Source of the DNA: a virus | IMG/VR virus record: IMGVR_UViG_3300009529_000048 | Location: 1 to 23,646 of that record | Reading direction: 5' to 3' (one strand) | Length of the DNA: 23,646 nucleotides | Part shown: positions 5,102 through 21,711 of the stretch, piece after piece | How positions within the stretch are numbered: position 1 is the first letter of the stretch | Layout of the letters: every line of letters begins with the position of its first letter | The notes under the pieces: generated by a model | The model's input: the letters and a program-made list of their open reading frames with translations, nothing else | Told to the model about the DNA's origin: nothing | Database searches by the model: none | Translations under genes and position numbers: made by a program

Positions 5102-5123
5102 GATATAGCAAGATAGTCAGTCT

Positions 5124-5180
5124 ACGCAAAGCGGGACTGGCCAGGAATTGAAATCGCTGTCGTGCGTCACGCAAAGCGGG
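5124..5180 (+). repeat. 12-base direct repeat in the capsid leader
   Basis: The sequence ACGCAAAGCGGG occurs at 5124-5135 and again at 5169-5180, 45 bases apart, both in the non-coding gap between the protease and capsid genes. The second copy forms the start of the long-range stem described in the next entry. The copies could be protein-binding sites or alternative partners for the same downstream strand. Confidence 0.6.
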
Positions 5181-5236
5181 CGCGGAACAGCCGCTCAGCC
5201 CTTTTGGGCCGGGCGCGTGTTTCGCGCCCGCTTTTT
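5173..5236 (+). terminator. Terminator or attenuator-like hairpins before the capsid gene
   Basis: The strand CGCGCCC (5223-5229) followed by GC and TTTTT (5232-5236) can pair locally with GGGCGCG at 5211-5217 over a five-base loop, forming a short intrinsic-terminator shape. The same strand extended to CGCGCCCGCTTT (5223-5234) is also perfectly complementary over 12 bases to AAAGCGGGCGCG at 5173-5184. That makes a longer stem enclosing a GCCC-TTTT-GGGC mini-hairpin (5198-5209). The two folds are mutually exclusive. Placed 17 bases before the capsid start, the element could reduce read-through, stabilise the capsid mRNA end, or be a processing site. Whether it terminates transcription is unproven, since the downstream genes must be expressed. 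Confidence 0.55.
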
Positions 5237-5252
5237 CGATATGAGGTGTATC

Positions 5253-6611: not shown

Positions 6612-6614
6612 ACC

Positions 6615-7466
6615 ATGAATCCTCCTTTCGTAATCGTTGGGGTACCCAGGTCGGCGACGGGCTATGCGTCGGTACTGCTACGTGCGCTGCAAATTGATTG
6701 CACGCACGAGCAGGTCTTCCGTCCACGGGGCGCACTTGAAGATGTCGTGAAATGGTATGCACGCGGCGGCGATACGCATGGCGATAGCTCGTGGCTGGCC
6801 TGGGTATTCCTGACGGCTATTCCGGGGCCGGTGAAGGTGCTATGGACGACTCGCAATCCGTGGGCGGTGATTGATTCGCTGGCGAATCGGAATGATCTGG
6901 TGCGTGAGGATGCGAACTTGCGCCCCGGCAAGCGGGCCTACCGTGACATCATCGCGGCGTATTGCCCTCGCGTGTTTGAACACGAGAGCGCGGTGGACCG
7001 AGCGGCAGAGCTGCTGGTTGAGTGGACGGCGCTGACGGGCGCGGCGCTACATCGGTGTGACGTTACGGCATTCCGCTACCGAGTAGAGGAGTTGGACGCC
7101 GACAAGGTGGCGGACATGCTGGAGTACCTTGGCATCTATCGCGACCGACAAGAGATTCGGCGGGCGCTGGACGAGGTGCCACAGAACGTAAACGCCGGGT
7201 CTAAGCTCGACTACAACATTCCAATTAAGAACCCGCTCATTCGTGGGTATCTGCAAGAGATGTGCCCCGACATGAAAGAGCCGACGATTGCTTGCGGGAT
7301 GTGTAAGGATACCCCGCGCGGCTGCGAGGAGCTTGAGGCGCAAATGGCGCCTGAACTGATAATGGAAGTCCGCAGCCTGGCAGCTCGCCAGGGCTACGGG
7401 TTGGACGATACGAGTGAGCAAGAGCCAGTTTTGGCAGGAGTAACTAACGATGACTCTGAGCAATAA
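6615..7466 (+). CDS. Sulfotransferase-like protein
   Basis: This 283-aa protein resembles PAPS-dependent sulfotransferases, which move a sulfuryl group from 3'-phosphoadenylylsulfate to a sugar, lipid or tyrosine. A P-loop-like 5'-phosphosulfate motif, VGVPRSATGYASVLL, is at residues 8-22. A typical 3'-phosphate motif, RNPWAVIDS, is at 80-88, with the R and S eight apart as in classical family members. EWTALTGAAL near 136-145 and NVNAGS near 191-196 also fit the fold. A four-cysteine cluster (C217, C227, C230, C237) near the C-terminus may bind metal. The gene sits three bases behind the capsid gene and overlaps the next gene by 17 bases, so it is in the late operon. A sulfotransferase is unusual here; it may modify the virion. 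The substrate is unknown, and another P-loop kinase-like role cannot be excluded. Confidence 0.62.
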   Translation: MNPPFVIVGVPRSATGYASVLLRALQIDCTHEQVFRPRGALEDVVKWYARGGDTHGDSSWLAWVFLTAIPGPVKVLWTTRNPWAVIDSLANRNDLVREDANLRPGKRAYRDIIAAYCPRVFEHESAVDRAAELLVEWTALTGAALHRCDVTAFRYRVEELDADKVADMLEYLGIYRDRQEIRRALDEVPQNVNAGSKLDYNIPIKNPLIRGYLQEMCPDMKEPTIACGMCKDTPRGCEELEAQMAPELIMEVRSLAARQGYGLDDTSEQEPVLAGVTNDDSEQ

Positions 7467-7953
7467 CGCAAGGTTGTGCGACCAGATCAACATCAAGACG
7501 ATTTACGATGCCAACGGCACGTATGATGTGGCTGCGGACGAAGTTGACATGAAAGACTGGGACCGCTGCTGTGTTATGGTGCTGGGCGCCGCAACAACTG
7601 CGGACGCAACGCACCACATTACCGGGTTCAAGATCGTGTCCAATACAACTTCGGCGGGCGCAGGGACTGACCATGACATCGTTGAGGCAGTCACGACGGA
7701 CGGCGGAACGACCGTAGCCTTGACGCAGGCGGATTACGGGATTGTGGCACCGAGTACGCTAGGCGATCAGGTATTGTGCCTGGATATCAGAGCCGATCAA
7801 ATGTACGCGGGCGACCGTTATATCCGCGCGGTATTGGCGGCAACAGGAACGTTTACCTGCGTCATTCTCTACATCCGCTACAACGGGAGCTTCAATTACA
7901 AGGACATGATCCAGGCGACGCGGACGGCGTTCCAGCACGACGGAGACATTTAG
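7450..7953 (+). CDS. Probable virion structural protein
   Basis: This encodes a 167-aa protein of unknown family. It starts at ATG 7450, nine bases after AGGAG (7436-7440), and overlaps the sulfotransferase end. The composition is that of a beta-rich virion protein: many T, A, G, D and V residues, alternating hydrophobic strands (VMVLGAATTAD, VILYIRYNGSF), no signal peptide and no membrane segment. Its position between capsid and connector genes is the usual place for head decoration or stabilisation proteins. I infer a head-associated structural role from context only. Confidence 0.72.
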   Translation: MTLSNNARLCDQINIKTIYDANGTYDVAADEVDMKDWDRCCVMVLGAATTADATHHITGFKIVSNTTSAGAGTDHDIVEAVTTDGGTTVALTQADYGIVAPSTLGDQVLCLDIRADQMYAGDRYIRAVLAATGTFTCVILYIRYNGSFNYKDMIQATRTAFQHDGDI

Positions 7954-7978
7954 GCCGACTGGCCAAGGAGTGTGAGCT

Positions 7979-8926
7979 ATGACTGTAGCTTTTGACCATG
8001 ATACGAAACTGGTTGTGAGCAAGCAATCGGGCGGGATGTTCGTCGTGCGCGACGCGGAGGCATGTCCCGGTAGGACGTTCTGGGTCGGCAGCAATGTAAC
8101 GGGCGCGACGGATGGCGCGGGCTACGGCCGCAATCCGGGCTCTCCGCTCGCAACGCTCGACTATGCGCTGGGAACCGGGTTTGCGCTGGCGGACCGCGGC
8201 GACACCATATTCCTGATGCCGGGCCACAATGAGGGCAAGGGTGACGCACAGTGGGATATTGATGTTGCGGGCGTATCTGTCATCGGGCTCGGACGCGGAA
8301 CACTTCGCCCGATACTTGACTTTGACCACGCCAATGCTTCGATGAACATTGGGGCGAGCAACTGCAGGGTTAAAAATGTTGTTTTGCGCCCGTCTACAAC
8401 GGCGGTACTGATCGGCATTGACATTGAGACAACCGTTACGGATACACTGCTGGAAGACATCGAGGTGATACCGGGCGAGGATGGCGCGGGTGCCGACGAA
8501 TTCGTTACGGGCATCGAGACGAAGGCGACCTGTACCCGGACGCATATTAAGGGATTCAAGTATTCGCATCATGCATCCGCCGCCGGAGCGAATCAGGCAA
8601 TCCATATCAACGGTGTCAGCGATCGGGTCCATATCGAGAAATTCTGGATCGAGATCAGCGGCGCTGGCGCCGTGGCGGGTATTGCGGGAACCGGGAACTC
8701 GACCCGCGCCCTCATTGAGAACGGCAAGATAACTACCGATGCCGAGCCTGGCATCGAAGTCGCAGCAGCCATGACGGGCATCATTGATACTGTCAAGATA
8801 TTCGCGGATCTGGCCACTATCGATGCGGCCACCGTGGCAGCAGGCATGGCCCACTTTGATGTCAAGTATTGCGAGGTTGGGGACGAGGCTGGAACGCTGG
8901 TCAAGACTGAATCGATCGATGATTAA
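7979..8926 (+). CDS. Right-handed beta-helix-like virion protein
   Basis: This 315-aa protein has the pattern of pectate-lyase-like right-handed beta-helices. An N-terminal cap segment (GRTFWVGSNVTGATDGAGYGRNPGSPLATLDYAL-like, residues about 31-64) is followed by RGDTIFLMPGHNE and then repeated short strands with turns (VSVIGLG, CRVKNVVLRPS, TLLEDIEVIPG, RTHIKGFKYS, VHIEKFWIEISG, ALIENGKI, VKIFADL). AAGGAG at 7965-7970 sits eight bases before the ATG. Proteins with this opening are common in phage structural modules and may be capsid decorations, glycan-binding or depolymerase domains. No catalytic residues can be assigned by eye. The position before the connector genes favours a head decoration or head fibre over a tail spike. 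Confidence 0.72.
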   Translation: MTVAFDHDTKLVVSKQSGGMFVVRDAEACPGRTFWVGSNVTGATDGAGYGRNPGSPLATLDYALGTGFALADRGDTIFLMPGHNEGKGDAQWDIDVAGVSVIGLGRGTLRPILDFDHANASMNIGASNCRVKNVVLRPSTTAVLIGIDIETTVTDTLLEDIEVIPGEDGAGADEFVTGIETKATCTRTHIKGFKYSHHASAAGANQAIHINGVSDRVHIEKFWIEISGAGAVAGIAGTGNSTRALIENGKITTDAEPGIEVAAAMTGIIDTVKIFADLATIDAATVAAGMAHFDVKYCEVGDEAGTLVKTESIDD

Positions 8927-9173
8927 GATAACGGAGCGCGGCTACCGTGACACATGCCTCGGGCGAGTATTGCAACTTAAGGTGTTCAGCGATGACTACC
9001 ACCCGCTGTACTGGACCGAGATATGGCAAGAGTTTGTCCGGCGATACCCGAACCGCTGGGCCGTGCAATGGTTCCCGCCAGCCGAACAGGTGGTGGACTC
9101 TAAGGCGGTGTATCACTTGTTCGTCTGCGAGAACTGTCCGGACGGTTTCAATCTTAGGGAGACTTCCCCATGA
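8919..9173 (+). CDS. Hypothetical 84-aa protein
   Basis: This 84-aa protein is unrecognised. The start ATG 8919 overlaps the end of the beta-helix gene by eight bases, and the stop overlaps the next ATG as ATGA, so it is tightly coupled on both sides. The sequence is rich in aromatic residues (YHPLYWTEIWQEFVRRYPNRWAVQWFPP) and ends with a CENC pair. No signal peptide or membrane segment is visible. The open frame extends upstream to 8784, but that part lies within the preceding gene and is not believed. It is probably a small structural or assembly accessory. Confidence 0.65.
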   Translation: MIKITERGYRDTCLGRVLQLKVFSDDYHPLYWTEIWQEFVRRYPNRWAVQWFPPAEQVVDSKAVYHLFVCENCPDGFNLRETSP

Positions 9174-9718
9174 GTGATTTGATTACACTGGTCGGCACCA
9201 ACGGCGAGCATATTTCCATCGAGGACGGCGCCATGCTCGTGGAGCCGAAGAGCGAGTTCCTGCAGGCGGTAGAGAACGGTTACGCCTTTAGCTGGTCGAA
9301 CCTGTCTACGGACATCAACGCAACCGATACGGTGTTGTGCGTCGAGAACAACAGTTCGACGCTGGACCTCTACATCGAGAAGATTCTACTGGCGACGGAT
9401 GCGAGCGGCGAGATGGTAGTGCATACGTCGAGTGGCGCAACGATGACGGGGACGGCACTGACAGGCGTAAACCTGAATCGTAACTCCGGCTATGTCGCGC
9501 CAGCGACGGCAAAAGCCGATGAGACTGGCAACGGTCAACAGGCGGCAAGCTACACGGGTCGGTTATACATCGTGTTCGCGCTGGCGGACCAGAGCGTACA
9601 GATCGACGTAGGCGGCGCCATCGTTCTACCGAACGACCATAACATCGGCATTGACGTGACAGCGGAGCCAACGGGCTGCAATGCAACGATCATCGGTTAC
9701 TTTAAGGCCAGAAGCTAG
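9170..9718 (+). CDS. Structural protein, first of two tandem paralogues
   Basis: This 182-aa protein has no family I can name, but it is clearly a paralogue of the next gene. Shared blocks include WS near residue 43, VENN, TGVNLNRN, DETGNG, GAIVLP and ATIIGYF/ATIIGWF in the same order over the same length. Its beta-rich, T/A/G/N-heavy composition is typical of virion surface proteins. AGGGAG (9156-9161) lies eight bases before the ATG, which overlaps the upstream stop. It lies between capsid and connector genes, so a head decoration protein, perhaps paired with its paralogue, is a reasonable inference. Confidence 0.72.
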   Translation: MSDLITLVGTNGEHISIEDGAMLVEPKSEFLQAVENGYAFSWSNLSTDINATDTVLCVENNSSTLDLYIEKILLATDASGEMVVHTSSGATMTGTALTGVNLNRNSGYVAPATAKADETGNGQQAASYTGRLYIVFALADQSVQIDVGGAIVLPNDHNIGIDVTAEPTGCNATIIGYFKARS

Positions 9719-9730
9719 GGAGGTGCTGCA

Positions 9731-10279
9731 ATGGTTCAATCAGTAGGAAGTGTGCTATTGTCGGATGGCTCGTCCCTGGTGAGCGGCGAAGATAACCGGC
9801 TGTTGACGAGGCCCAAAAGCCGATTCCTAACGGCAGTCGCAAAGGGTATGGCGTATTCATGGTCGTGCGTGACTAAGGATTGGGCGGCGGGCGATACGGT
9901 CATCGGCGTGGAAAACAACGATGCCACGCTGTCGCTGTATATCCAGGAGGTGGTTGTCAGCACCGCGACAGCTACGCGGGCGCTCATCTTCGCCTCCGAC
10001 GGCGTGACGGTTGCGGGGACTAACGCCGTGACAGGCGTAAACCTCAACCGCAACTATGGCAACAATGCGAACGCTACCTGTTACGACGACGAAACCGGCA
10101 ACGGCGAAGCTGCGCTAAGCTGGCCGCGGCGGTTCTCGGAAACGATCCTGCTGGCTGGTCAAACGCAAAGCGTCGTGCTCGATGGCGCCATTGTGCTCCC
10201 GCCGGATGGCTTTATCGGCGTAGACCTGGTGGCGGATACTACCGGCGGGACCGCTACGATCATCGGTTGGTTTGAATAG
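9731..10279 (+). CDS. Structural protein, second of two tandem paralogues
   Basis: This 182-aa protein has the same length and block order as its upstream neighbour (YSWS, VENN, TGVNLNRN, DETGNG, GAIVLP, ATIIGWF), with the N-terminal 40 residues more diverged. Even the DNA around the TGVNLNRN block is nearly the same in both genes (acaggcgtaaacct then diverging third bases). It starts at ATG 9731 after AGGGAGGTG (9717-9725), one of the stronger ribosome binding sites here. The pair arose by gene duplication. The second copy could form a hetero-oligomer with the first or occupy a different virion site. Function is otherwise unknown. Confidence 0.72.
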   Translation: MVQSVGSVLLSDGSSLVSGEDNRLLTRPKSRFLTAVAKGMAYSWSCVTKDWAAGDTVIGVENNDATLSLYIQEVVVSTATATRALIFASDGVTVAGTNAVTGVNLNRNYGNNANATCYDDETGNGEAALSWPRRFSETILLAGQTQSVVLDGAIVLPPDGFIGVDLVADTTGGTATIIGWFE

Positions 10280-10294
10280 TCAGAGGGGTGTCGC

Positions 10295-10876
10295 ATGACG
10301 CTTGTACTAAACACGGCGGCCACCAGCGAACCCCTGACCGTGGCCGAAGTCAAGCTCTGGCTTCGCATCGACGGCGATGACCAGAACGACGTTATCCAGG
10401 CGCTTATCCGCAAGGCGAGGATCGTTGCTGAGACGACGTTGCGCCGGCAATTGTTCACGGCAACATGGAAGCTGCTGCTGGATGACTTCCCGCATGGGTG
10501 CGACTTCATCCGGCTACCGCTTCCGCCATTGGCATCAATAACGTCAGTTCAGTATGTGGATACCGCTGGCGATACACAAACATGGTCGAGCGATGAGTAT
10601 TCGGCGGATACTGACTCAGAGCCCGGGCGGCTGCTACTTGGCTATGGTGAGGTCTACCCAACGACGCGCAGCCAGCGACATGCGGTAACGATCACCTACG
10701 TCGCCGGTTGGACGACAGTGGCGGCGATACCCGAGAGCGTCAAGAGCGATATGGGGGTGCTTATCGGCCGCCTGTACTATAATCGCGAACTGATAGCCGA
10801 TGGCGGGACGCCGCAAGTGATGGGGGAATTGACTAAAGGATTGTTCAGCACTGACCGCGTGATGGAGTTCGTCTAA
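10295..10876 (+). CDS. Head-tail connector protein, gp6-like
   Basis: This 193-aa protein matches the HK97 gp6 / phiE125 gp8 group of adaptors that form a ring below the portal. The N-terminus has the usual EPLTVAEVKLWLRIDGDDQNDVIQALIRKARIVAE pattern (residues about 12-46), followed by a beta segment with RLPLPPLASITSVQYVD and a C-terminal helix (VKSDMGVLIGRLYYNRE). Length is normal. A GAGGGG site precedes the ATG, and the stop overlaps the next start as TAATG. It follows the decoration-like genes and precedes the head closure gene, as expected for the connector module. Confidence 0.85.
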   Translation: MTLVLNTAATSEPLTVAEVKLWLRIDGDDQNDVIQALIRKARIVAETTLRRQLFTATWKLLLDDFPHGCDFIRLPLPPLASITSVQYVDTAGDTQTWSSDEYSADTDSEPGRLLLGYGEVYPTTRSQRHAVTITYVAGWTTVAAIPESVKSDMGVLIGRLYYNRELIADGGTPQVMGELTKGLFSTDRVMEFV

Positions 10877-11202
10877 TGCGTGCCGGGCGCCTGCGCCATC
10901 GGGTGGAGTTACATGCCCTGTCCCAGACAGCAGGCGACTTCAACGAGCCGGTGGATACCTGGACGAAGTTTGCCACGGTCTACGCCGATATTCACCCGAT
11001 GCGCGGGACCGAGCGGTTCGAGGCGGCGCAGGTTGCAGCAGAGGCAACGCACAAGGTACGACTCCGGTACGATAACGACGTATCGACGCTGGACGTTCGC
11101 GATCGTGTGATATTCGGCGACCGGACGTTCGAGATTGTATCGCTCGTGAATCGCGGTGAACGCAACATCGAAGTTGAAATGCTTTGTGCGGAGGCGCTGT
11201 AA
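10876..11202 (+). CDS. Head closure protein (head-tail adaptor, SPP1 gp16-like)
   Basis: This 108-aa protein of the phage head-tail joining family (PF05521 type) forms the ring that closes the connector after packaging. Typical features are the basic start MRAGRLRHRVEL, the GDFNEPVDTWTKFATVYADI block, RFEAAQ and the C-terminal RDRVIFGDRTFEIVSLVN...EVEMLC strand pair. It starts in a TAATG overlap with the connector gene and ends in a TAATG overlap with the next gene. Length and position are ordinary for the family. Confidence 0.87.
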   Translation: MRAGRLRHRVELHALSQTAGDFNEPVDTWTKFATVYADIHPMRGTERFEAAQVAAEATHKVRLRYDNDVSTLDVRDRVIFGDRTFEIVSLVNRGERNIEVEMLCAEAL

Positions 11203-11693
11203 TGGCCAAGGCGATAGCTGGAATTGAGATTGTCGGCGCCAAGGAGGTCGAACGAGCGTTCACGATACTCCCGGACCGACTTGCCCGCAAGGCGGTAGTG
11301 GTGGCGGTACGCGATGCACAGAAGCCGATTATCAAAGATGCCCGCAGTCGAATAGCTCGCCATGCCGTGCGGGGTGAAAGCGGGCGCATGAAACGGGTCC
11401 GCGGACAACTGGCCAAGAGCATTGGCAGCCGGGTGAAGTTCTACAAGAACACCGGAACCGTTCTCGCCATCATCGGCCCACGTCGGAAGTACGCTGGTAT
11501 GATCGAGGGCATAAAGCCGACGCGATACGCGCACCTTGTTGAGTTCGGTACGCGGCGTAGTAGGGCCAAGCCATTTTTGCGCCCTGCCTTATCGGCGCAA
11601 GCAGGCGCCGCCAAAGCGGCCTTCGCTAAGCGCTTCCGCAAGGAACTCGATAAGGAAATAACCAAGATCAGAAAGCGGGGGCGCCGTGGTTGA
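11202..11693 (+). CDS. HK97 gp10-like tail-joining protein
   Basis: This 163-aa protein belongs to the HK97-gp10 family of tail completion proteins. It has the usual basic character with an AIAGIEIVGAKEVERAF start, a DAQKPIIKDARSRI helix, the YAHLVEFGTRRSRAKPFLRPAL signature (residues about 108-129) and a lysine/arginine-rich C-terminal helix. I use ATG 11202, seven bases after GGAGG (11190-11194) and overlapping the upstream stop. A TTG at 11184 in the same frame is not favoured. It overlaps the next gene by eight bases. Confidence 0.85.
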   Translation: MAKAIAGIEIVGAKEVERAFTILPDRLARKAVVVAVRDAQKPIIKDARSRIARHAVRGESGRMKRVRGQLAKSIGSRVKFYKNTGTVLAIIGPRRKYAGMIEGIKPTRYAHLVEFGTRRSRAKPFLRPALSAQAGAAKAAFAKRFRKELDKEITKIRKRGRRG

Positions 11694-12099
11694 GGACGGC
11701 CTGATTGATTATCTGCTGGCCGATACGGATGTTAAGGCGCTTGTCGGTACCCGCGTCTATCCGGTTGCTGTTGCGCAAGATGTGGTGCGTCCGTATATCA
11801 CGATACAACGTATTGCCGTTGACCGCACGTATGACCACGACGGGGAAACCGGGCTTTGCGCCCCGCTTATTCAGATCGACTGCTGGGCGGATACGTATCG
11901 CGGCGCCAAGACGCTCGCAGACAAAGTGCGACTTGCTATCAGCGGGTATAACGGCGCGCTAGGCGGCTACACGGCGCAAGCCATCCTGATACAGAACGAA
12001 GTTGACTTGAGCGAAGGCCCGAGCACGGGCAGCGAGAAGGTGATACATCGGGTGTCGATTGATGCATCGGTGTGGTTCAATGAAGTGGTACCCTCTTAA
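11686..12099 (+). CDS. Tail terminator / completion protein, DUF3168
   Basis: This 137-aa protein fits the DUF3168 (gp17-like) tail completion family, which caps the tail tube and joins it to the head. Typical blocks are the N-terminal DYLLADTDVKALVGTRVYPV, PYITIQRIA, LIQIDCWADTYRGAKTLADKVRLAI and a C-terminal VIHRVSIDASVWF strand. It starts with GTG inside the end of the upstream gene (eight-base overlap). It directly precedes the tail tube gene, the usual order. Confidence 0.85.
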   Translation: MVEDGLIDYLLADTDVKALVGTRVYPVAVAQDVVRPYITIQRIAVDRTYDHDGETGLCAPLIQIDCWADTYRGAKTLADKVRLAISGYNGALGGYTAQAILIQNEVDLSEGPSTGSEKVIHRVSIDASVWFNEVVPS

Positions 12100-12114
12100 T
12101 AAGGAGGCTTTGAT

Positions 12115-12555
12115 ATGTCAGTAGGTTCAGATGGTACGTCCGGTTTCCAGTCTACGCTTTACCGTGGAGCAGCAGATGCACTAGCGGCGGCTATCACAAC
12201 CAAAATCGGCAACGTCATCAGCGTTAGCGGCCCGACGATCAGTGGCGACAGCGTAGAGATCACCAACCACGACAGTTCAAGCGGCTTCCGCGAGTTCCTG
12301 CCCGGTTTATCTGACGGCGGCGAGATCACAGCTGAGCTGCACATGGTGAAGGCGACCGCAACTGCGACGTATGCCCTGATTCAAACCGCATTGAGTTTCA
12401 AGATTGGCATCGGGCTGGCTTCGGTGATTGGAACATGGCATTGCAACGGCCACATCACGGGCTTCGGCACAGAGGTTCTAGCCGGTGCTGATGCGGTAAC
12501 GAATACGCTGACGATTAAGGTCGCGAATCAGCCGACATTCACAGCGGCAGCGTGA
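12115..12555 (+). CDS. Major tail (tube) protein
   Basis: This 146-aa protein is the probable subunit of the tail tube. AAGGAGG (12101-12107), seven bases before the ATG, is the strongest ribosome binding site in the window, as expected for an abundant virion protein. The sequence shows the common tube-protein pattern: SGPTISGDSVEITNHDSSSGFREFLPGLSDGGEITAEL (about residues 38-75), then beta strands with TWHCNGHITGFG and a C-terminal VTNTLTIKVANQPTF strand. Its position after DUF3168 and before the chaperones supports this. The following two genes encode a methyltransferase and a glycosyltransferase, making this protein a candidate target. Confidence 0.86.
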   Translation: MSVGSDGTSGFQSTLYRGAADALAAAITTKIGNVISVSGPTISGDSVEITNHDSSSGFREFLPGLSDGGEITAELHMVKATATATYALIQTALSFKIGIGLASVIGTWHCNGHITGFGTEVLAGADAVTNTLTIKVANQPTFTAAA

Positions 12556-12558
12556 TGT

Positions 12559-13131
12559 ATGGGCGTCGCACAACGTGGCCAGGCAATACTGCGAAGGGTC
12601 TCAGCCGGCGGCACCCTCGTTGGCGCAGAGATCGGCGTATGGGACGGCAAGTTATCCTCCTGGCTGTTGCACATGGCACCGCTGCTAACGCTGTACATGG
12701 TGGACCGCTGGGCACCCGTAAAGCCGGATAGCCGCTATGGCAAGAGCGGGTCAATAGTCGCCAGGAAGTCAAAGCGTGAGCTCATCGTTGCAATGCGCAA
12801 GGCACAGGCTCGCGTATTCTTCGCCAATGGCGTACACCGCGCCCGCGTCATACAGGGGGAATCGCGGATTGTCGCTTATCAACTGCCGAACGAAGTTCTG
12901 GACTTCGTGTTCATCGACGCCGACCATACGTTCGGTGGTGTGACTGAGGACTTGGTTGCATGGCACGCAAAGGTCAAACGCGGCGGGTGGATCGGCGGGC
13001 ACGATTGGGGCAAGCGCCCCGAAGTGTGGGGTGTGCAGGAAGCTGTCGAGACGTTTATGGCAACGGACTATCCAAACGCCGAGTTGGAACTGGACGAAGA
13101 TTCAACGTGGTTCTTTAGGCGACTGATATGA
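12559..13131 (+). CDS. Class I SAM-dependent methyltransferase
   Basis: This 190-aa Rossmann-fold methyltransferase resembles the Methyltransf_24 group often found with glycan enzymes. Motif I is AEIGVWDGKLSSWL (residues 23-36). The acidic residue after strand 2 is D49 in YMVDRW. The motif after strand 4 is DFVFIDADHTFGGVTEDL (115-132), and GGWIGGHDWG (142-151) is the post-strand segment typical of this group. The gene starts three bases after the tail tube stop and overlaps the glycosyltransferase start by four bases (ATGA), so the two enzymes are made together. The substrate could be a sugar, a glycoprotein or a nucleotide. The neighbours suggest a glycan or virion protein, which is inference. 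Confidence 0.8.
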   Translation: MGVAQRGQAILRRVSAGGTLVGAEIGVWDGKLSSWLLHMAPLLTLYMVDRWAPVKPDSRYGKSGSIVARKSKRELIVAMRKAQARVFFANGVHRARVIQGESRIVAYQLPNEVLDFVFIDADHTFGGVTEDLVAWHAKVKRGGWIGGHDWGKRPEVWGVQEAVETFMATDYPNAELELDEDSTWFFRRLI

Positions 13132-13886
13132 CAGTTGTAACCGTATTGCTGGGCGATGCGCCACACTATCGGCGACTGTTTTCCGTATTCAAGCGCAGCC
13201 TTCAGGCGAACTGCCCCTTAGCCACGCTGGAGGTTATGCGCGCGGGGCTACCGCCTAGGCCGAGCAATCTGCCTTATCACACGGCGACGAATACGACCAA
13301 GCTTCACCTATGGCGGGATGCCGTCTATCGGCACGAAGGCAAACTTGTTTTGCTAGATTGCGATGCCGTCATATTGGGCGACCTTGCTGCCGCATTCCAG
13401 CAGGGACCATTTGATATCGGCTATACCGTGCGGCCTGGAATGCTGCGGCTTAATTCCGGTGTCGTATTCGTCCGATGCAATCAGCGCTCGCGCACATTTA
13501 TGGATGACTGGGTTACTATTAACGATGCGCTACTTGCCCATCAGCCCGCTTGTCTTGCTAGTATGGCACGCTACGGTGGTGTCAATCAGGCAGCGATGGC
13601 TTATCTGCTGGACAAGAGACCCGACTGCAAATTGCAGCAATTTCATTGTGCTGTGTGGAACAGCGTACAGGAAACGTGGCATCAGGTAAACGATAAGACG
13701 CGCATCGTGCATATCAAAAGCCGCCTACGCGATATAGCACTGGGGCGAATACCAGCAACGCCGGACAACATGCGTCCACCCAAGGAGGCCATTATGGCCG
13801 GCGTGGACCCGAATGAATCAATCCAGCCGGCGTTGGACGCGTGGCTGAAGTACAGCGGAAACGGAGGTATGAAACATGTTACTTAA
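13128..13886 (+). CDS. GT-A type glycosyltransferase, GT8-like
   Basis: This 252-aa enzyme is predicted to transfer a sugar from a nucleotide sugar. It has a metal-binding DxD motif, LLDCDAVILGDL (DCD at residues 77-79), the acceptor-side block MLRLNSGVVFVR (105-116), GVNQAAMAYLL (151-161, equivalent to the DQ block of GT8 enzymes) and a C-terminal IVHIKSRLRD with H195 as a likely second metal ligand. No signal peptide or membrane anchor is visible, so it should act in the cytoplasm during assembly. The last ten bases overlap the tail chaperone gene, whose GGAGG lies within this gene. It is coupled to the methyltransferase upstream. Acceptor unknown. Confidence 0.8.
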   Translation: MTVVTVLLGDAPHYRRLFSVFKRSLQANCPLATLEVMRAGLPPRPSNLPYHTATNTTKLHLWRDAVYRHEGKLVLLDCDAVILGDLAAAFQQGPFDIGYTVRPGMLRLNSGVVFVRCNQRSRTFMDDWVTINDALLAHQPACLASMARYGGVNQAAMAYLLDKRPDCKLQQFHCAVWNSVQETWHQVNDKTRIVHIKSRLRDIALGRIPATPDNMRPPKEAIMAGVDPNESIQPALDAWLKYSGNGGMKHVT

Positions 13887-14268
13887 AGAAGACATCCTGG
13901 GGGCTGACGATCTGAAGCGCGAGCGCGTTGAAACACCAGACTGGCCATGTAGACATGTGTGGGTACGAACGATGCCGGGCATTGATCGCGATAGTTTTGA
14001 AGAGCAATCATTGGATGGCGATCCGGGTAGTCGTACGATGCGCTACCGCAATCTGCGCGGACGCCTGGCCGCATGGACCATTGTGGACGAAGGTGGACAG
14101 CGTGTGTTTGCCGATGAGGATGCGGATGCGGTGGGGCAAAAAAGCGCGGCAATGCTAGACAGAGTATTCGATGTGGCATCGCGGCTGAACGGTCTGTCTG
14201 ACAAGGATGTGAAGGACTTGGCAAAAAACTTGAGCGGCGCCCAAGGCGGCGCTTCTGGTTCAGACTAG
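13876..14268 (+). CDS. Tail assembly chaperone, gpG-like
   Basis: This 130-aa protein is in the position of lambda gpG, a chaperone that coats the tape measure before tube polymerisation. GGAGG at 13863-13867 is eight bases before the ATG. The sequence is acidic with a beta-rich N-terminal half and a helical C-terminal half (AAMLDRVFDVASRLNGLSDKDVKDLAKNL). The tail SGAQGGASGSD after the slippery site is flexible. Near codon 118 lies an in-frame A AAA AAC signal that should send a fraction of ribosomes into the -1 frame. That would give a fusion of about 230 aa with the next gene, equivalent to gpG-T. Confidence 0.85.
   Translation: MLLKEDILGADDLKRERVETPDWPCRHVWVRTMPGIDRDSFEEQSLDGDPGSRTMRYRNLRGRLAAWTIVDEGGQRVFADEDADAVGQKSAAMLDRVFDVASRLNGLSDKDVKDLAKNLSGAQGGASGSD
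14223..14253 (+). promoter_or_regulatory. Programmed -1 ribosomal frameshift signal
   Basis: The heptamer A AAA AAC (14223-14229) lies in the correct zero frame (GCA AAA AAC). The -1 frame from CTT at 14229 is open through 14271 and is exactly the frame of the downstream chaperone gene, with 14 codons between. Downstream, AGCGGCGCC (14233-14241) can pair with GGCGGCGCT (14245-14253) around a CAA loop, with one G-G mismatch. The part above the mismatch begins eight bases after the heptamer, a typical spacer. AAGGA sequences at 14203-14207 and 14212-14216 could act as internal Shine-Dalgarno stimulators. Confidence 0.82.
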
Positions 14269-14270
14269 CG

Positions 14271-14567
14271 ATGGCGCTGGGTATGTCGGTACAGAAGTTG
14301 TTGGCCAGTACCGACTCGCGGGAGCTTGCAGAATGGGAGGCATACGAAAGGCTAGAACCGTTCGGCGAACAGCGGGCGGATTGGCGAATTGCCCAAGTGG
14401 CGTGCATCTTGGCAAACGTCAACCGCAAGAAGGGGGCGCCGGCATTTAAGGTGGATGACTTCATGCTAAAGACCGGGGCAGCACCCAAGACGCAACAGGT
14501 ATCGGCGACAGACCTGGCCCAACAACTGAAGGGCATAACGAGAGCAATGGGCGGCAGGATTAAGTGA
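14271..14567 (+). CDS. Tail assembly chaperone T-domain, made by -1 frameshift
   Basis: This open frame corresponds to the lambda gpT part of the tail chaperone. The block MSVQKLLASTDSRELAEWEAYERLEPFGEQRADWRIAQ is that of the phage tail assembly T / DUF4035 family (residues 5-42 of the free frame). It ends in a disordered-looking linker and a helix (ATDLAQQLKGITRAM). The ATG at 14271 has no good ribosome binding site, which fits production mainly as the C-terminal half of the frameshift fusion (coding from about 14229 in this frame). The tape measure starts two bases after its stop. Confidence 0.83.
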   Translation: MALGMSVQKLLASTDSRELAEWEAYERLEPFGEQRADWRIAQVACILANVNRKKGAPAFKVDDFMLKTGAAPKTQQVSATDLAQQLKGITRAMGGRIK

Positions 14568-14568
14568 C

Positions 14569-16107
14569 GTGGCAACAGTAGGCGGTATCAATGTAAACGT
14601 CGTGGCGAAGACGGATCGTTTCAAGCGCAACATGCGCGGCGCGCGTAATAGCGTCCGCCGATTTTCTGGAGCCTCGCAACGAGCCACCGCGACGCTCTAC
14701 AAGTTCGGCGGCGCCATAGCAGCCGTTGTCGGAGCCCGCCAACTGCTACTTATGGCAACGAGCGTGTTTCGCACGGTTGATGCGCTTGCAAAGGTATCTG
14801 ACAAACTCGGTATTGCCACGGAAAAGCTCGCTGGCCTACAGCACGCTGCTCAATTGTCTGGCGTTGCGACGCAGACTTTCAATATGGGCCTTCAGCGTAT
14901 GACGCGCAGGATGGCCGAGGCCGCCCAGGATACGGGTGAAGCTAAAGAGGCCATCAAACAGCTCGGACTGAGTGCCCGCCATCTCGTCACTCTTGCACTT
15001 GACGAGCAATTCCTTGCCGTCGCAGAAGCGCTATCGAAGGTTGACAACCAAAGTGAGCGCGTGCGGCTGGCGTTCAAACTGTTTGACTCTGAGGGTGTTG
15101 CACTTGTCAATATGGCCAAGGGGGGCCGCGAGGCACTGCACGGAATGATGGAGGAGGCCGAGCGTCTCGGCATAGCCATCAGCCGCATTGATGCGAAGAA
15201 GATCGAGCAGGCGAATGATGCAATCACGCGAATGCAGGCTGCGTGGTCTGGCGTCAAGCGCGAGGTGGCGATTGAGGTTGCACCTGCGTTGGAATCGGCC
15301 GCCGAGTGGATTGTAAAGAACGATGCAATTAAGAAGGCGTGGAAAGTATTAACATGGAAGCCGCATACTGTTGCGGGGACAATGTTGAGTCGCCATCTTG
15401 GCCACGGCATCAAACAACAGTTGAAAGACTTTGAGAAATACTGGCAGGCTATCGGCGAGCTAGGCAAGCAATCACAAGACGCTGCCCCCAAGGTTATTAA
15501 GCTGTCCGATGCAATGAAGCGGCTGCAGGAACAGGCAGTCAAGGCGCGGGCCGCGCGGACCGCTGGTTATGCTAGTGAGTTGGAAGCTATCCTTGGTGGG
15601 CTTGTAGTACGTCTGCGCGAGTTGCAAGGCTTAGACCCGCTTGCCGAACTTGAGCGGCGATTGCGAAAGCGGTCTGCGACACTAGGTGAGTTAAAGCTCG
15701 GCCTAGATACGCTCCGGCAGATAATCGACTTAGAGGAACGCGCGACGAAAACCGCCCGACGGGAATCATTGTTTGAATCTATGCGATCGCCACTAGACTA
15801 TATCCGCCAGCGCCTAATCGACGCGAACGAAGCCTTAAAGATCGGCGTCGTAAGTTGGAAGCGATACGGAGAAGTGTTGAAAGGCATTAAAGCAGACCTG
15901 CTTGGCGCAGGCGGCGCGGCCCAAACCATCAGCTACGCGCCAGTCGCCATTCGCGGCACCGTTGGAGGTTATAGCGCGGCGCTCGGCGGATCAGCACCAA
16001 TGGCCAAGATGGAATCGTTGAACGCGGAGCAGTTGCGGGTATTGCGCATCATTGAACGTAAGATCGGCGAAGCGGAGGTTGTCAACGTAACAGGCAACGC
16101 GGCATAG
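14569..16107 (+). CDS. Tape measure protein
   Basis: This 512-aa protein sets tail length and is ejected with the DNA. It begins GTG at 14569, nine bases after AGGA. It has a basic N-terminal region (FKRNMRGARNSVRRFS), a hydrophobic segment near residues 43-66 (LYKFGGAIAAVVGARQLLLM), and long amphipathic helices with an ALAKVSDKLGIATEKLAGLQHAAQLSGV block seen in many tape measures (about 71-97), then alanine- and charge-rich helices to the end. The length is short; by the usual rule of about 0.15 nm per residue, the tail would be of the order of 75-80 nm. The C-terminal part does not show a lysozyme or peptidase domain. Confidence 0.87.
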   Translation: MATVGGINVNVVAKTDRFKRNMRGARNSVRRFSGASQRATATLYKFGGAIAAVVGARQLLLMATSVFRTVDALAKVSDKLGIATEKLAGLQHAAQLSGVATQTFNMGLQRMTRRMAEAAQDTGEAKEAIKQLGLSARHLVTLALDEQFLAVAEALSKVDNQSERVRLAFKLFDSEGVALVNMAKGGREALHGMMEEAERLGIAISRIDAKKIEQANDAITRMQAAWSGVKREVAIEVAPALESAAEWIVKNDAIKKAWKVLTWKPHTVAGTMLSRHLGHGIKQQLKDFEKYWQAIGELGKQSQDAAPKVIKLSDAMKRLQEQAVKARAARTAGYASELEAILGGLVVRLRELQGLDPLAELERRLRKRSATLGELKLGLDTLRQIIDLEERATKTARRESLFESMRSPLDYIRQRLIDANEALKIGVVSWKRYGEVLKGIKADLLGAGGAAQTISYAPVAIRGTVGGYSAALGGSAPMAKMESLNAEQLRVLRIIERKIGEAEVVNVTGNAA

Positions 16108-16111
16108 ACAT

Positions 16112-17107
16112 ATGTCACTTGTAAGCGTACACGAGCGATACCTAGACCAGGGAGCGACAGAGGACACGGAACGCCGGACCTATCGCCGGGTATTCGTCGT
16201 GCGTATGGACAGTCGCAGTGACGGTGCAGCAGCTGCTCGCGTTGCAACCGGGGTTCCCGCTGTCGGCGATACCTGGACGGATGCCAAGGGCACGAACGAG
16301 GATACCGCCGTCCGCGCCATGCGCGTTGATCCGATCCCGCGCGAGGACGGTAAGACGTTCGATGTGGTGGTGGATTATGACACCCGGCCGATCGGCGTCT
16401 ATTCAACGTTCCGCGATTGGTCCGCGCCGCAGGACTTCGCCGACCCAACGGCCAGACCGCCCGAGATACACTACGGGTTCCGGCGCGAGGTGATACCGAT
16501 TGCCAGGGCGCTTGATTACATGACACCGCCGCCGCCATTCCCGCATGATATTGCAGTTGTCAATAGTGCTGGCGAGCCGTTCGACCCGCCGATCACGCGC
16601 GAGATTTCGCGCCCAATCTTGCGCATCGTCCGTAACGAATGGGACCCCGGGGTGTCTGGCGGGATCGGGTACGACAACGCCATAGCAATGGCCTATGTCG
16701 ATACCATCAACTCGGACGACTTCATAGGTGCATTGCCGAAACAGGTAAAGATGGCGGGCATAACGGCGGACAGACATTTTGAATCTGGGATGCTCTACTG
16801 GCGCGTGACCTACGAGCTGCACTTCCGCCAGGAAACATGGGACGTGCAAGTACTGGACCAGGGGATGCGGCATTGGAAGACTGTAGAAGATCCGGAAACG
16901 CAACAATCCGTTGACCGTCTTATCGAGAACCGCGATATGTACGATAATCTCTACAGCGAGCCGCGTCTGCTCGGGACAGACGGTGGGCTGGCGGACGTGG
17001 ACGTAGACGATCCGCGTAAGCATCAGGAGAACTGGTTGACATTCCAGGTATACGAAGAAAAGCCGTTCAGTGGATCACCGTTGAATCTGTCGCAGTTGTT
17101 TACATAG
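16112..17107 (+). CDS. Probable tail-tip / minor tail protein
   Basis: This encodes a 331-aa protein following the tape measure, the place of distal tail and baseplate-hub genes. No Shine-Dalgarno is evident at the ATG, which follows the tape measure stop by four bases. The sequence has a beta-rich N-terminal domain with FVVRMDSRSDG and VGDTWTDA segments, a middle part with a PPPPFPHD turn, and a C-terminal domain with aromatic strands (LYWRVTYELHFRQETWDVQVLDQG). I do not recognise a named family. The position and beta-rich character favour a distal tail or hub component. Confidence 0.7.
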   Translation: MSLVSVHERYLDQGATEDTERRTYRRVFVVRMDSRSDGAAAARVATGVPAVGDTWTDAKGTNEDTAVRAMRVDPIPREDGKTFDVVVDYDTRPIGVYSTFRDWSAPQDFADPTARPPEIHYGFRREVIPIARALDYMTPPPPFPHDIAVVNSAGEPFDPPITREISRPILRIVRNEWDPGVSGGIGYDNAIAMAYVDTINSDDFIGALPKQVKMAGITADRHFESGMLYWRVTYELHFRQETWDVQVLDQGMRHWKTVEDPETQQSVDRLIENRDMYDNLYSEPRLLGTDGGLADVDVDDPRKHQENWLTFQVYEEKPFSGSPLNLSQLFT

Positions 17108-17117
17108 GAGCAAGCCA

Positions 17118-17627
17118 ATGGCTTTACCCGTTCAAGAAATCCGTGGCGATGTTTACATTAACGGCAATTTGCAGGCCAAGACACAGACTTACCCGGCTAC
17201 ATCAATCGCAAACGCCGACATTGCGGCTGCCGCTGCAATTGCCGCCAGCAAGCTAGAGCACCGCCATAATATCATGTATTCGCAGGAGAGCGATACGCAG
17301 GTGCCGAGCGATGCGACATACCCGATCTTTAACTGCTACGGCGCGACGGGGACGACGGTAGCCTTCGAGGCGGGGAGTGTTACGCCTTGTACGGTTACGC
17401 GAACGGTAACGGTGGACCTGTTGAAAAACGGCGTATCGGTGTTAGCTGCTGCAATCGTGCTCGATGTTGGCAACGCGGCGCGGACACCGGAGGCTGCTGT
17501 CGTGGATACATCAGCGATTGCGGACGGCGACCTGTTGGAGATAGATATCGCAAAGGCCGGTGCGGCTGGCGACTACGCAAAGGGGCTATACTGCACCGTC
17601 GTCATCAACGAGGATGCAAGTCCGTAA
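17118..17627 (+). CDS. Tail fibre or appendage-like protein
   Basis: This 169-aa protein has an N-terminal module containing NADIAAAAAIAASKLEHRH (residues 27-45). That alanine/isoleucine helix motif recurs in phage fibre and collar proteins, where it probably forms trimers. A beta-sandwich-like domain follows (TVTVDLLKNGVSVLAAAIVLD, GDLLEIDIAKAGAAG, YCTVVINED). AGGAGC (17106-17111) precedes the ATG. The stop overlaps the next ATG as TAATG. A virion appendage is likely from motif and context; the receptor is unknown. Confidence 0.7.
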   Translation: MALPVQEIRGDVYINGNLQAKTQTYPATSIANADIAAAAAIAASKLEHRHNIMYSQESDTQVPSDATYPIFNCYGATGTTVAFEAGSVTPCTVTRTVTVDLLKNGVSVLAAAIVLDVGNAARTPEAAVVDTSAIADGDLLEIDIAKAGAAGDYAKGLYCTVVINEDASP

Positions 17628-18229
17628 TGAACAGAGGCGTTACATTCACGCGTGAGACCGCGCAGCTTATCGCTGATACCGTTGCTCGCGTGGCCGAGAT
17701 GCCATTGGGCGCAGTGGCTAGGCGGCACAAGATAAGAGGAATACGGCCTGCTACACAGACTCGGCTGGGGCGCATCGTCACTGAGGGACCGATTGATCCT
17801 AGTAATGGATTGCCGAGGTCCGATTACACCGATGCGAGATACTGGATACAACGGGTTGTTCAGGCGCCAGATCGTACTGATGCCACATTGCCATCTGCGT
17901 GGGTGCAAGACGAGGGCACCGACGCCGTGACGGCGATCTATCCGCAGGAGATCGGAATACCGGGCTACGCGGACGGCAACCATGTTTTGCTGAACGTACC
18001 CGCGAACATCGACGCGGCACACCACTGGGATGCCGACAAATTGTATGTCGATCTGTACGAGTCAGCTAATGGCTTGCGGTGGATTTCGCCGAGGTTCGGT
18101 GCGTGGGTGGACTTTACCGTACCGGTGTGGTGTACTGATGAGAACGATTGTCCACCGCACGAATGGGGCCGTGTACCTGGGTCGCCATACATTGATACTA
18201 ATAACCCTGTTGTCGGAGGGTGTTCGTAA
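17627..18229 (+). CDS. Hypothetical tail-region protein
   Basis: This encodes a 200-aa protein starting in a TAATG overlap. The longer open frame beginning at 17387 lies inside the upstream gene and is not used. The N-terminus (FTRETAQLIADTVARVAEM, residues 6-24) is a helix of a type seen in small phage structural proteins. The rest is a beta-rich, aromatic domain (LYVDLYESANGLRWISPRFGAWVDFTVPVW). The end carries a cysteine cluster (WCTDENDC and GGC), linking it in style to the very cysteine-rich protein that follows. It is probably a tail or virion component; function unknown. Confidence 0.68.
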   Translation: MNRGVTFTRETAQLIADTVARVAEMPLGAVARRHKIRGIRPATQTRLGRIVTEGPIDPSNGLPRSDYTDARYWIQRVVQAPDRTDATLPSAWVQDEGTDAVTAIYPQEIGIPGYADGNHVLLNVPANIDAAHHWDADKLYVDLYESANGLRWISPRFGAWVDFTVPVWCTDENDCPPHEWGRVPGSPYIDTNNPVVGGCS

Positions 18230-19212
18230 TGGGTGGCGGCGCGGTGACATTATTGACGGACTGCCCATGCTGCGTTGGCTGTCCTTGTACCCTGTACATC
18301 GACACAAAATGTTACGACTATGGCGTTACTCCGGCTGCGGAGTGTACGCCGTGTTGTCCTGACAATTACACGATCCCCGAATCGTGCGAGGGCCACTTTT
18401 CCGTCGATCCGTGCGATCTGCCGGCCAAGATCACCTATATACCGATTTCGGACACATGTGATTCGCAGCAACCAAACCAATACTTCACCGTTAATGTACC
18501 GACAGACGTTTGGTGCGGCGGCGACCTGTACGAGATTTTCAGTTTGACGCTGGAATGGACATGCGGTGGCGGGTATCACGAAAAGACCGAGTATTACCAG
18601 AGTTCAGTAACGATCTGCTGGCCAACGACGGACGAAGGATGCGACGGAACTTGCATCATCAACCTGATCGTGCGGTATTCAAAGGTCGTCACCGGCTCAC
18701 CTGATTGTCGAGTTTACATCAGCCCTTATGGATCATGGCAGACCCTGCCGGTCGTCTGTGATGTGGGTATTAATTGGACTATGTACCCCCCTGATCCGCA
18801 CGGTTTCATTGTTCCGAGGGATATATACGGTCGGAGCAACTACCTTGATCCCAACCCATGTATGCCGGGCTTACCAAGCACGTTCTGTTATCCGAATCGT
18901 GCGAATGGCGGGCCGCAAAAGGTTACCGTCTTTGTAAAGGCACCTTGCATACTTGTTCACGGGGATACCCCGCCGCGTGGCTGGGCACGCTGGGTTCATG
19001 CGGGCTTCTATGTTCGCGATGCTCACCCATCTAGTGTCTGCTCTCTAAGGCCCAGAACGGAGGGCATGTCTGTTGATGTCTGGTTGTACGATCCCTCAGT
19101 ACCGTCTGGTCCAGGCAGTTCTTGTTGTGATCCTTCCCAGGCTCTTGCCGTATCATCTACCCCGGGGGGGTTTATCCGTTCCTGGGAATGTGGTGTGGAT
19201 GCGTGTCCCTGA
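18229..19212 (+). CDS. Very cysteine-rich tail-region protein
   Basis: This encodes a 327-aa protein with 27 cysteines (about 8 percent), counted from ATG 18229. GGAGGG at 18215-18220 is eight bases before this ATG, and a GTG at 18220 is less likely. The N-terminus has a dense DCPCCVGCPC cluster (residues about 12-21), followed by CTPCC, many single cysteines spread through the chain and a CC pair near the C-terminus. Aromatic, proline and glycine residues are abundant, with beta-strand-like stretches between cysteines. The pattern suggests many metal sites or disulfides; the latter would need an oxidising place, such as an assembled virion after lysis. No signal peptide is visible. I know no family for it. 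Its place among tail genes suggests a virion or receptor-contact protein. Confidence 0.68.
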   Translation: MGGGAVTLLTDCPCCVGCPCTLYIDTKCYDYGVTPAAECTPCCPDNYTIPESCEGHFSVDPCDLPAKITYIPISDTCDSQQPNQYFTVNVPTDVWCGGDLYEIFSLTLEWTCGGGYHEKTEYYQSSVTICWPTTDEGCDGTCIINLIVRYSKVVTGSPDCRVYISPYGSWQTLPVVCDVGINWTMYPPDPHGFIVPRDIYGRSNYLDPNPCMPGLPSTFCYPNRANGGPQKVTVFVKAPCILVHGDTPPRGWARWVHAGFYVRDAHPSSVCSLRPRTEGMSVDVWLYDPSVPSGPGSSCCDPSQALAVSSTPGGFIRSWECGVDACP

Positions 19213-19225
19213 AAAGGTGGTGGCG

Positions 19226-19486
19226 ATGAGCCCCAATGGGCGCCTCCGTGAGTTCCTAGAAGGCCCGGCAACGACCCGGATAGAATATCAAACAAGGAGG
19301 TCAAACCTTGTTATACGGGATCAGCAAGAGGTTGTACGTTGCCTAGCGATCTGCCACGAGTGTCCGGAGCTGCAAGGCGACTGGTGCGGCGAGTTGTTGC
19401 GGCGACGAAAGAATGTTCGGTGCGGCTGCTACCTGCCGATCAAAACGAAGATCAAATGGTTCCACTGCCCGCAAGGTAAGTGGTAA
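19226..19486 (+). CDS. Small zinc-knuckle-like cysteine protein
   Basis: This encodes an 86-aa protein with seven cysteines in the arrangement VVRC-LAIC-HEC-...-WC-...-RCGC-YLPIKTKI-...-HCPQGKW (residues about 39-86). A similar pattern, ending in CP.GKW after a CGC.L..K block, is known in small phage and bacterial proteins thought to bind metal; their function is not established. ATG 19226 is chosen because AAAAGGTGG (19212-19220) lies just ahead. An in-frame ATG at 19199 would overlap the upstream gene by 14 bases. It sits between two tail-region genes and might help assemble or load metal into the cysteine-rich neighbour, which is speculation. Confidence 0.72.
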   Translation: MSPNGRLREFLEGPATTRIEYQTRRSNLVIRDQQEVVRCLAICHECPELQGDWCGELLRRRKNVRCGCYLPIKTKIKWFHCPQGKW

Positions 19487-20663: not shown

Positions 20664-20721
20664 AGGTTAGGCGTCTGTACGCTTGAAGTCGCCTACCCCC
20701 GTCCGGTACGATCTACCCCCG

Positions 20722-21711
20722 ATGAATCTGAAACCACCCCAACTGAGACGCCACGCAACGGGCCAGTGGATGGTGCGGTGGGGCGGCAAGGATCGGTATC
20801 TCGGCCAGGACTGGGAGAAGGCCAACGCGAAATACCTCACCGATCCGGTGAACGGACTCTCGGCCTGGTCGGCATGGCGAGCCGCCCGGAACACTCAACG
20901 ATTGCCGCCCATGCGCCCGATGCTGACCATGGCGGATATCCTGGAGCGCTTCCTGGAGTTCAAGCGCCTGGAGGGGGGTGCCGACGTAGAGAACTTCTAC
21001 GCCAAACACCTCAAGCGGTTCGCCCACGCCTACGGGCAGGCCCGCGGCGATCTGATCCGAGCCAAGCACCTACAGGCCCTCAAAGAAGACATGCTGCGCC
21101 ACGGCTACGCTCCACGAACGGTCAACCATGATCTTCAGGCCGTCAAGACACTGCTACGGTGGGGCGCTGGCATGGAATATGCCCCGCTAATGGATCTGCG
21201 GATCGTCCGGGGTGTGCCGCTGCCTGAACCACCCGACAGGTCGCTACCCGTGGCCAAGGTCCGGCGCATGGTGGCGACAGCACCGGAGACGCTAGCCCCG
21301 TGGCTGGCCATCAACTATCTGTGCCTCATGCGTCCCAGCGAGGTCGTCCGGGTTGTCCAGCAGGAGGGGGAGTGGGAGTCTGACGGTATCTACAAGATCA
21401 GATCGAAGGTTGGCCGGCGGACCCGTCAGCCGCGTCGGGTGGTGTTTTCTCGGCTGGCGCTGAAGTGGCTTGGGCAGTGCGAACCCCGCTGGACCCGACT
21501 GGACTCTTATAGCCAGGCCGTCCGCGACTTCTTCGGTCCCGGCGGGCCTCATCCTCTGCGGCATAGCGGAGCGACGCATCTAATTCGAGCGGGGGTGGAT
21601 CGGGCAACCGTTGATCTCCTACTAGGGCACCTGCCTCCGCGCGTGTCCTTGACCTACGCCCAAATACGGTGGAGTAGTCTACGTCGGACAGCGGCCCGAC
21701 TAAGCGTGTGA
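20722..21711 (+). CDS. int: Tyrosine integrase
   Basis: This is a 329-aa site-specific recombinase that would insert the phage into the host tRNA-Asn gene. It has a short N-terminal arm-binding region (LRRHATGQWMVRWGGKDRYLG), a SAM-like core-binding domain (about residues 68-160) and a catalytic domain with R204 (LMRPSEV), probable K229, H277 and R280 (PHPLRHSGATHL), H303 (LLGH) and nucleophile Y312 (LTYAQI). I prefer ATG 20722, where the family-like sequence begins, over TTG 20683; neither has a clear ribosome binding site. It lies 80 bases right of the att core and converges with the minus-strand cluster, leaving only 12 bases between stop codons. Confidence 0.92.
   Translation: MNLKPPQLRRHATGQWMVRWGGKDRYLGQDWEKANAKYLTDPVNGLSAWSAWRAARNTQRLPPMRPMLTMADILERFLEFKRLEGGADVENFYAKHLKRFAHAYGQARGDLIRAKHLQALKEDMLRHGYAPRTVNHDLQAVKTLLRWGAGMEYAPLMDLRIVRGVPLPEPPDRSLPVAKVRRMVATAPETLAPWLAINYLCLMRPSEVVRVVQQEGEWESDGIYKIRSKVGRRTRQPRRVVFSRLALKWLGQCEPRWTRLDSYSQAVRDFFGPGGPHPLRHSGATHLIRAGVDRATVDLLLGHLPPRVSLTYAQIRWSSLRRTAARLSV

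Follow-up and report, generated by a model that had tools for sequence, protein, structure and literature searches.

A cysteine-rich gene in the tail region of a probable Planctomycetota phage and the recurrent slot that it occupies

What does a tailed phage do with a protein that is 8% cysteine (Cys) and is encoded just behind the tape measure gene? The question is raised by a gene at 18229..19212 in the 23,646-nucleotide stretch of IMG/VR record IMGVR_UViG_3300009529_000048, the whole of which we call the window. The sequence of its 327-amino-acid (aa) product is an orphan, while its position is not, since the same slot in related loci repeatedly holds Cys-rich genes. We put at about even the chance that this product serves in attachment at the distal tail of a Planctomycetota phage, with Cys that are under selection and probably pair into disulfides once outside the cell.

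The cysteine-rich gene and its setting

The open reading frame (ORF) runs from an ATG at 18229 to a stop ending at 19212, and a recount of its translation gave 27 Cys in 327 residues (8.26%), in agreement with the length and Cys number in an earlier note made from the DNA letters alone. The motifs described there were all located in the translation, with DCPCCVGCPC at residues 11-20, CTPCC at residues 39-43 and the late CC pair at residues 299-300. The protein is laid out as an N-terminal Cys cluster (residues 12-43) followed by single Cys scattered up to the C-terminus, and a β-rich segment is predicted, at low confidence, at about residues 80-165. The first 45 residues contain 9 Cys, where shuffled sequences average 3.7 (P = 0.007), and the counts of CC, CxxC and CxC equal the expectation from composition alone. 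The remaining genes of the window encode 72 Cys in 6674 residues (1.08%), a rate that gives a probability of 8e-16 for at least 27 Cys in 327 residues; apart from this gene and the one following it (19226-19486), which the earlier note passed over, predicted window genes range from 0 to 3% Cys. The earlier note had called the content exceptional, and rightly so, but this is only part of the picture, as Cys-rich genes recur in the same slot of Planctomycetota-type phages.

This ORF could plausibly be a gene: its start overlaps the preceding stop (TAATG), it occupies the whole gap to the next gene, and its reading frame ranks best of six by window-based codon usage, although its codon-usage score (-0.018) falls below the 0.056 to 0.257 of the other window genes, perhaps partly because of the unusual amino-acid content. 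This low score and the lack of homologues are the points in favor of a spurious or decaying ORF whose Cys would simply result from base composition or drift. Given the frame ranking, the overlap and the fit between two genes, together with the improbable Cys content and the conserved Cys of Cys-rich counterpart genes in other phages, we consider that explanation very improbable.

The location in the tail region, also proposed in the earlier note, is borne out by the gene order, in which the Cys-rich gene lies downstream of the gene for the tail tape measure protein (TMP) and of a second gene, termed X:

14569..16107, plus strand: TMP, the synteny anchor (PHROG 9483, E = 6e-65; homologues in L004, L005 and L014-L047)
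16112..17107, plus strand: gene X, 331 aa, directly after the TMP gene; homologues in the same place of other loci
17118..17627, plus strand: 169-aa gene between gene X and the 200-aa gene; no family above chance in Pfam or PHROGs
17627..18229, plus strand: 200-aa gene whose stop overlaps the start of the Cys-rich gene
18229..19212, plus strand: Cys-rich protein, 327 aa, 27 Cys, the subject of this analysis
19226..19486, plus strand: small Cys protein, 86 aa, 7 Cys (8.1%); PHROG 13558, E = 7e-8

Gene X is likely a distal tail component, judging by its position. The small Cys gene is followed by a 290-aa gene, a tyrosine recombinase is encoded at 20683-21711, and genes for the terminase, the portal and the major head protein occupy the left part of the window. 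Another contig of 18,156 bases, 3300024433_000096, shows no difference across the compared part (window 4569-18156) and stops 73 bases short of the Cys-rich gene, so it provides no independent confirmation of that gene.

Cysteine-rich genes in the same slot of other loci

The slot is defined by a layout of TMP, X, one or two genes, the slot gene and often a small Cys gene, and TMP relatives were taken from IMG/VR and GTDB genomes. Gene X has homologues at the corresponding position in L005 (E = 3e-21), L124 and L151 (both about 4e-17), L021 (2e-7) and L102 (4e-5), and in L005 and L021 both TMP and X are homologous to those of the window. TMP and/or X are common to the window and L005, L021, L102 and L226, each of which has a Cys-rich slot protein. 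The Cys-rich proteins of these and other loci are as follows:

L005: 356 aa, 24 Cys; a small Cys protein is next
L021 (Planctomycetales bacterium ZRK34): 467 aa, 34 Cys
L102 (a second locus of Planctomycetales bacterium ZRK34): 309 aa, 23 Cys
L226: 304 aa, 24 Cys; order TMP, X, one gene, slot (X-anchored scan)
L026 (Phycisphaerae metagenome-assembled genome): 306 aa, 15 Cys
L016 (Phycisphaerae metagenome-assembled genome): 231 aa, 9 Cys
L101 (Planctomycetota, TMP match or small Cys gene): 349 aa, 17 Cys
L115 and L158 (Planctomycetota, TMP match or small Cys gene): 454 aa, 43 Cys
L154 (Planctomycetota, TMP match or small Cys gene): 318 aa, 26 Cys

The window protein has the features of this positional class, being encoded downstream of TMP and X, containing at least 5% Cys with an N-terminal cluster, and having as its next gene a small Cys gene, which in the class is of either the PHROG 13558-like or the RH..WExGxGPGQ type. 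We infer its link to the class from position, neighbors and composition.

To compare host groups, the highest Cys fraction among genes of at least 150 aa within 5 kb downstream of TMP was taken for 41 Planctomycetota and 22 other loci, with the window, L005 and the probable wrong-frame ORFs L111 and L126 left out. The median best value was 3.2% in the Planctomycetota loci compared with 1.6% in the others (Mann-Whitney P = 6e-5), and at least 4% Cys was reached in 7 of 41 versus 0 of 22 (Fisher P = 0.04). The strength of these P-values is overstated because related loci were counted as independent; L115 and L158, for example, are near-identical loci of one genome, and a set of 40 slot proteins described below collapses to 26. 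Cys-rich slot genes are thus recurrent in Planctomycetota loci and far from universal.

The small Cys protein is a recurrent companion of the Cys-rich slot genes. In the window its motif is C..C...C...CGC....K....CP..KW, with all the invariant Cys of PHROG 13558 present (alignment A2), and no stretch of this alignment of small Cys proteins is conserved enough for scanning. PHROG 13558, a family without an assigned function, covers this neighbor gene and not the Cys-rich gene. Hits to it came from 30 of 392 Planctomycetota genomes, with E ≤ 1e-6 in 18; the 299 Pseudomonadota genomes gave 3 weak hits (the best at 2.5e-5 and none reaching 1e-6), and the 14 control genomes gave 0. This strong enrichment makes the small gene a possible host marker, and it is mainly because of this indirect evidence that the window virus, a tailed temperate phage known from a metagenomic contig, is assigned a probable Planctomycetota host. 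Cys-rich genes are often close by in the loci around small Cys genes (L086-L119). In L089, L090, L092 and L094 the surroundings are glycosyltransferase-like in place of tail genes, and therefore not all loci with Cys modules are classical phage tails. Single or tandem slot-family Cys modules of 110-160 aa were observed near large glycosyltransferase-like genes in L089, L090 and L092-L094, which are not obviously tail clusters.

A slot protein family with conserved cysteines

When IMG/VR was searched with the second small-gene type, which has the motif CxC...RH...WExGxGPGQ, 41 contigs were recovered. The gene directly upstream of the small gene has at least 4% Cys in 38 of 40 contigs, compared with 10 of 238 other genes. 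After the 40 slot proteins collected were collapsed to 26, 22 were aligned (A5). In L196, L197, L199 and L200 both small-gene motifs occur within one protein, that of L196 matching PHROG 13558, which links the second-type set to the neighbor type of the window.

The A5 proteins start with CCCxxC, continue with a domain that has a DxFNR...W motif and a linker of the form CPxCxCxC, and end in a Cys module; no model for the family was found in Pfam, PHROGs or NCBIfam. Cys accounts for 12 of the 23 columns conserved in at least 85% of the 22 sequences, and no class of columns is better conserved than the one with a Cys consensus, a pattern that argues against drift in this family. The earlier note had named unconserved Cys among homologues as the sign of drift; the check could be run on this family, which is not detectably homologous to the window protein, and is inapplicable to the window protein itself, for which no homologue was detected.

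For the L005 slot protein, AlphaFold2 gave a model (predicted local distance difference test, pLDDT, 77) that matches the carbohydrate-binding module CBM66, the phage J-1 Dit CBM2 and many minor tail or receptor-binding proteins. The match spans about 165-220 residues, corresponding to the predicted lectin-type domain of the L005 protein. The window protein resembles the family with a CCC start, lectin domain and Cys module (L005 and most of L164-L203) in lying upstream of a small Cys gene, in length, in Cys-richness and in having an N-terminal Cys cluster, but differs from it in showing no detectable sequence similarity, no DxFNR...W motif and no match to the C-terminal module profile. The slot proteins of L196, L197 and L202, which have no lectin domain and contain 9-11% Cys, are closest to it in make-up, a likeness of architecture only.

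Other Cys-rich proteins were observed as well. Two related ones in L100 (8399-9745 and 12021-13463) have the largest Cys numbers encountered, 46 and 50 (about 10%), and the C-module profile hits each of them (E about 1e-8 to 1e-9). Proteins of about 440-454 aa in L114, L115 and L158 contain 39-43 Cys, many of them in regularly spaced N-terminal pairs, a type that differs from the lectin-bearing proteins.

Function and chemistry of the window protein

We favor a model in which a slot that repeatedly holds fast-evolving, Cys-rich proteins in Planctomycetota-type phages has the window protein as one occupant. The protein would be of the minor tail or adhesin class and would contact the host at the distal tail, with its Cys kept by selection. 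Upon release from the reducing cytoplasm, intramolecular and perhaps inter-subunit disulfides would most likely form, and these may brace an exposed and diverse adhesin. The location in the virion, the disulfide chemistry, the Planctomycetota host and a job shared with the other slot proteins are all inferred; the tail-adhesin role is read from position because the protein fails the slot-family profile. Lectin- or CBM-type minor tail and receptor-binding proteins, such as J-1 Dit CBM2 and the minor tail protein of Arthrobacter phage GurgleFerb, offer a parallel in their post-TMP position; the concanavalin-like/CBM fold is predicted for the L005 slot protein, and the known examples were compared by fold only, not by Cys content. 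For the chemistry, the closest parallel is Agrobacterium phage Milano, whose virion is extensively crosslinked by disulfides between Cys-rich structural proteins and is less robust after reduction (PMC10491603). Both are tailed phages with Cys-rich proteins and ties to a single host group (PMC10491603), but the Cys of Milano are in the capsid, neck, collar and sheath, whereas those of the window are concentrated in one or two tail-region genes and none are in TMP. This likeness is drawn from the description of Milano and not from sequence comparison.

Several results weigh against this model. No homologue of the Cys-rich protein was detected in Pfam, PHROGs, NCBIfam, PDB, annotated phages or IMG/VR, as the earlier note had anticipated in naming no family for it. 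The profile of the slot-family C-terminal Cys module scores it no better than its shuffles (500 shuffles), and a single-sequence structure model reached a pLDDT of only 38, so that the lectin-type jelly-roll fold is predicted for the L005 slot protein only. Its location in the virion is presumed, and the host is a deduction made for a metagenomic contig. In the TMP-anchored comparison, at least 5% Cys was reached in just 4 of 41 Planctomycetota loci versus 0 of 22 others (Fisher P = 0.17), most Planctomycetota TMP relatives have no strongly Cys-rich slot gene, and the exclusion of four loci weakens the contrast (the prior count was 8 of 45 at the 5% level).

Individual searches gave a similar picture. 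A single-sequence IMG/VR search with the Cys-rich protein was empty, tblastn against phage records returned chance-level matches only (E ≥ 4), and hhalign with the C-terminal Cys module profile gave a probability of 0.35%. The protein lacks the CCCxxC start and the DxFNR...W lectin motif and has CPCCxGCPC instead. Three sets of candidates were rejected: six hits among 392 Planctomycetota genomes (E 0.001-0.006) were chance, consisting of short matches in unrelated ORFs; the CPCCxGCPC DNA pattern occurred at 19 IMG/VR loci, 3 of them in frame with an ORF and none related; and among the X-anchored IMG/VR loci L223, L225 and L226, only L226 has a Cys-rich slot gene, and none resembles the window sequence.

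The main chemical rival to disulfides is metal binding, in which Cys at CPCCxGCPC and CTPCC would ligate structural zinc or an iron-sulfur center already in the reducing cytoplasm, giving a metal-stabilized tail tip or spike. Metal sites need no oxidation to form, C-x2-C and C-x-C pairs are present in the window protein, the CCCxxC start and post-lectin CPxCxCxC linker of the slot family are metal-site-like, and the small Cys neighbor has a zinc-ribbon-like pattern. On the other hand, the Cys are mostly single and spread over 330 residues, the pair counts are no higher than composition predicts, and no metal-protein family was matched, so we regard metal binding as unlikely. The main functional rival, to which we assign a similarly low probability, is a non-virion cargo gene behind the tail genes, for example one for a prophage-made protein that coats or modifies the host surface. 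The glycosyltransferase surroundings of the Cys modules in L089, L090, L092 and L094 and the extreme sequence diversity of the slot fit such a cargo, but inspection of the sequence by eye (no predictor was run) shows neither a signal peptide nor a membrane segment, the gene overlaps tightly with the late morphogenesis run, and minor tail proteins match the lectin-type fold modeled for the L005 slot protein.

A direct role in thiol exchange is conceivable because planctomycete envelopes have been described as Cys-rich, disulfide-stabilized protein (PMC3035269). The tail protein would then swap disulfides with this envelope, either anchoring the phage or loosening the cell wall, a proposal for which PMC2754498 is cited, together with the association of the Cys-rich slot and its small Cys neighbor with Planctomycetota. 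No redox-type family or fold was identified, however, the host is itself deduced, and newer work (PMC5394234) gives planctomycetes a Gram-negative cell plan. We therefore consider this exchange improbable, and equally so its extension to a rapidly diversifying, Cys-dominated adhesin class adapted to a disulfide-linked host envelope and attaching by thiol-disulfide exchange.

Few phages have been described for Planctomycetota, hosts with an unusual envelope. One planctomycete phage is the subject of PMC10945688. The open-access full texts searched contained no description of such a Cys-rich slot class, which is of more interest as a class, a variant of tail attachment proteins, than as a single gene. 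The recurrent slot is a concrete candidate for a Planctomycetota phage attachment protein, a possible marker of planctomycete hosts for metagenomic viruses and, beside Milano, a possible further example of disulfide use in tailed virions.

Minor features were also observed in these loci. In the head region of the window, adjacent 182-aa genes at 9170-9718 and 9731-10279 look alike by eye and form an apparent tandem duplication. The head and tail genes are interspersed with a weakly sulfotransferase-like gene (6615-7466), a methyltransferase gene (12559-13131; Pfam E = 6e-16) and a weakly sugar-transferase-like gene (13128-13886). Frames judged by eye to be sulfotransferase-like also lie near the Cys-rich slot in L021 (14651-15715) and L226 (11512-11934).
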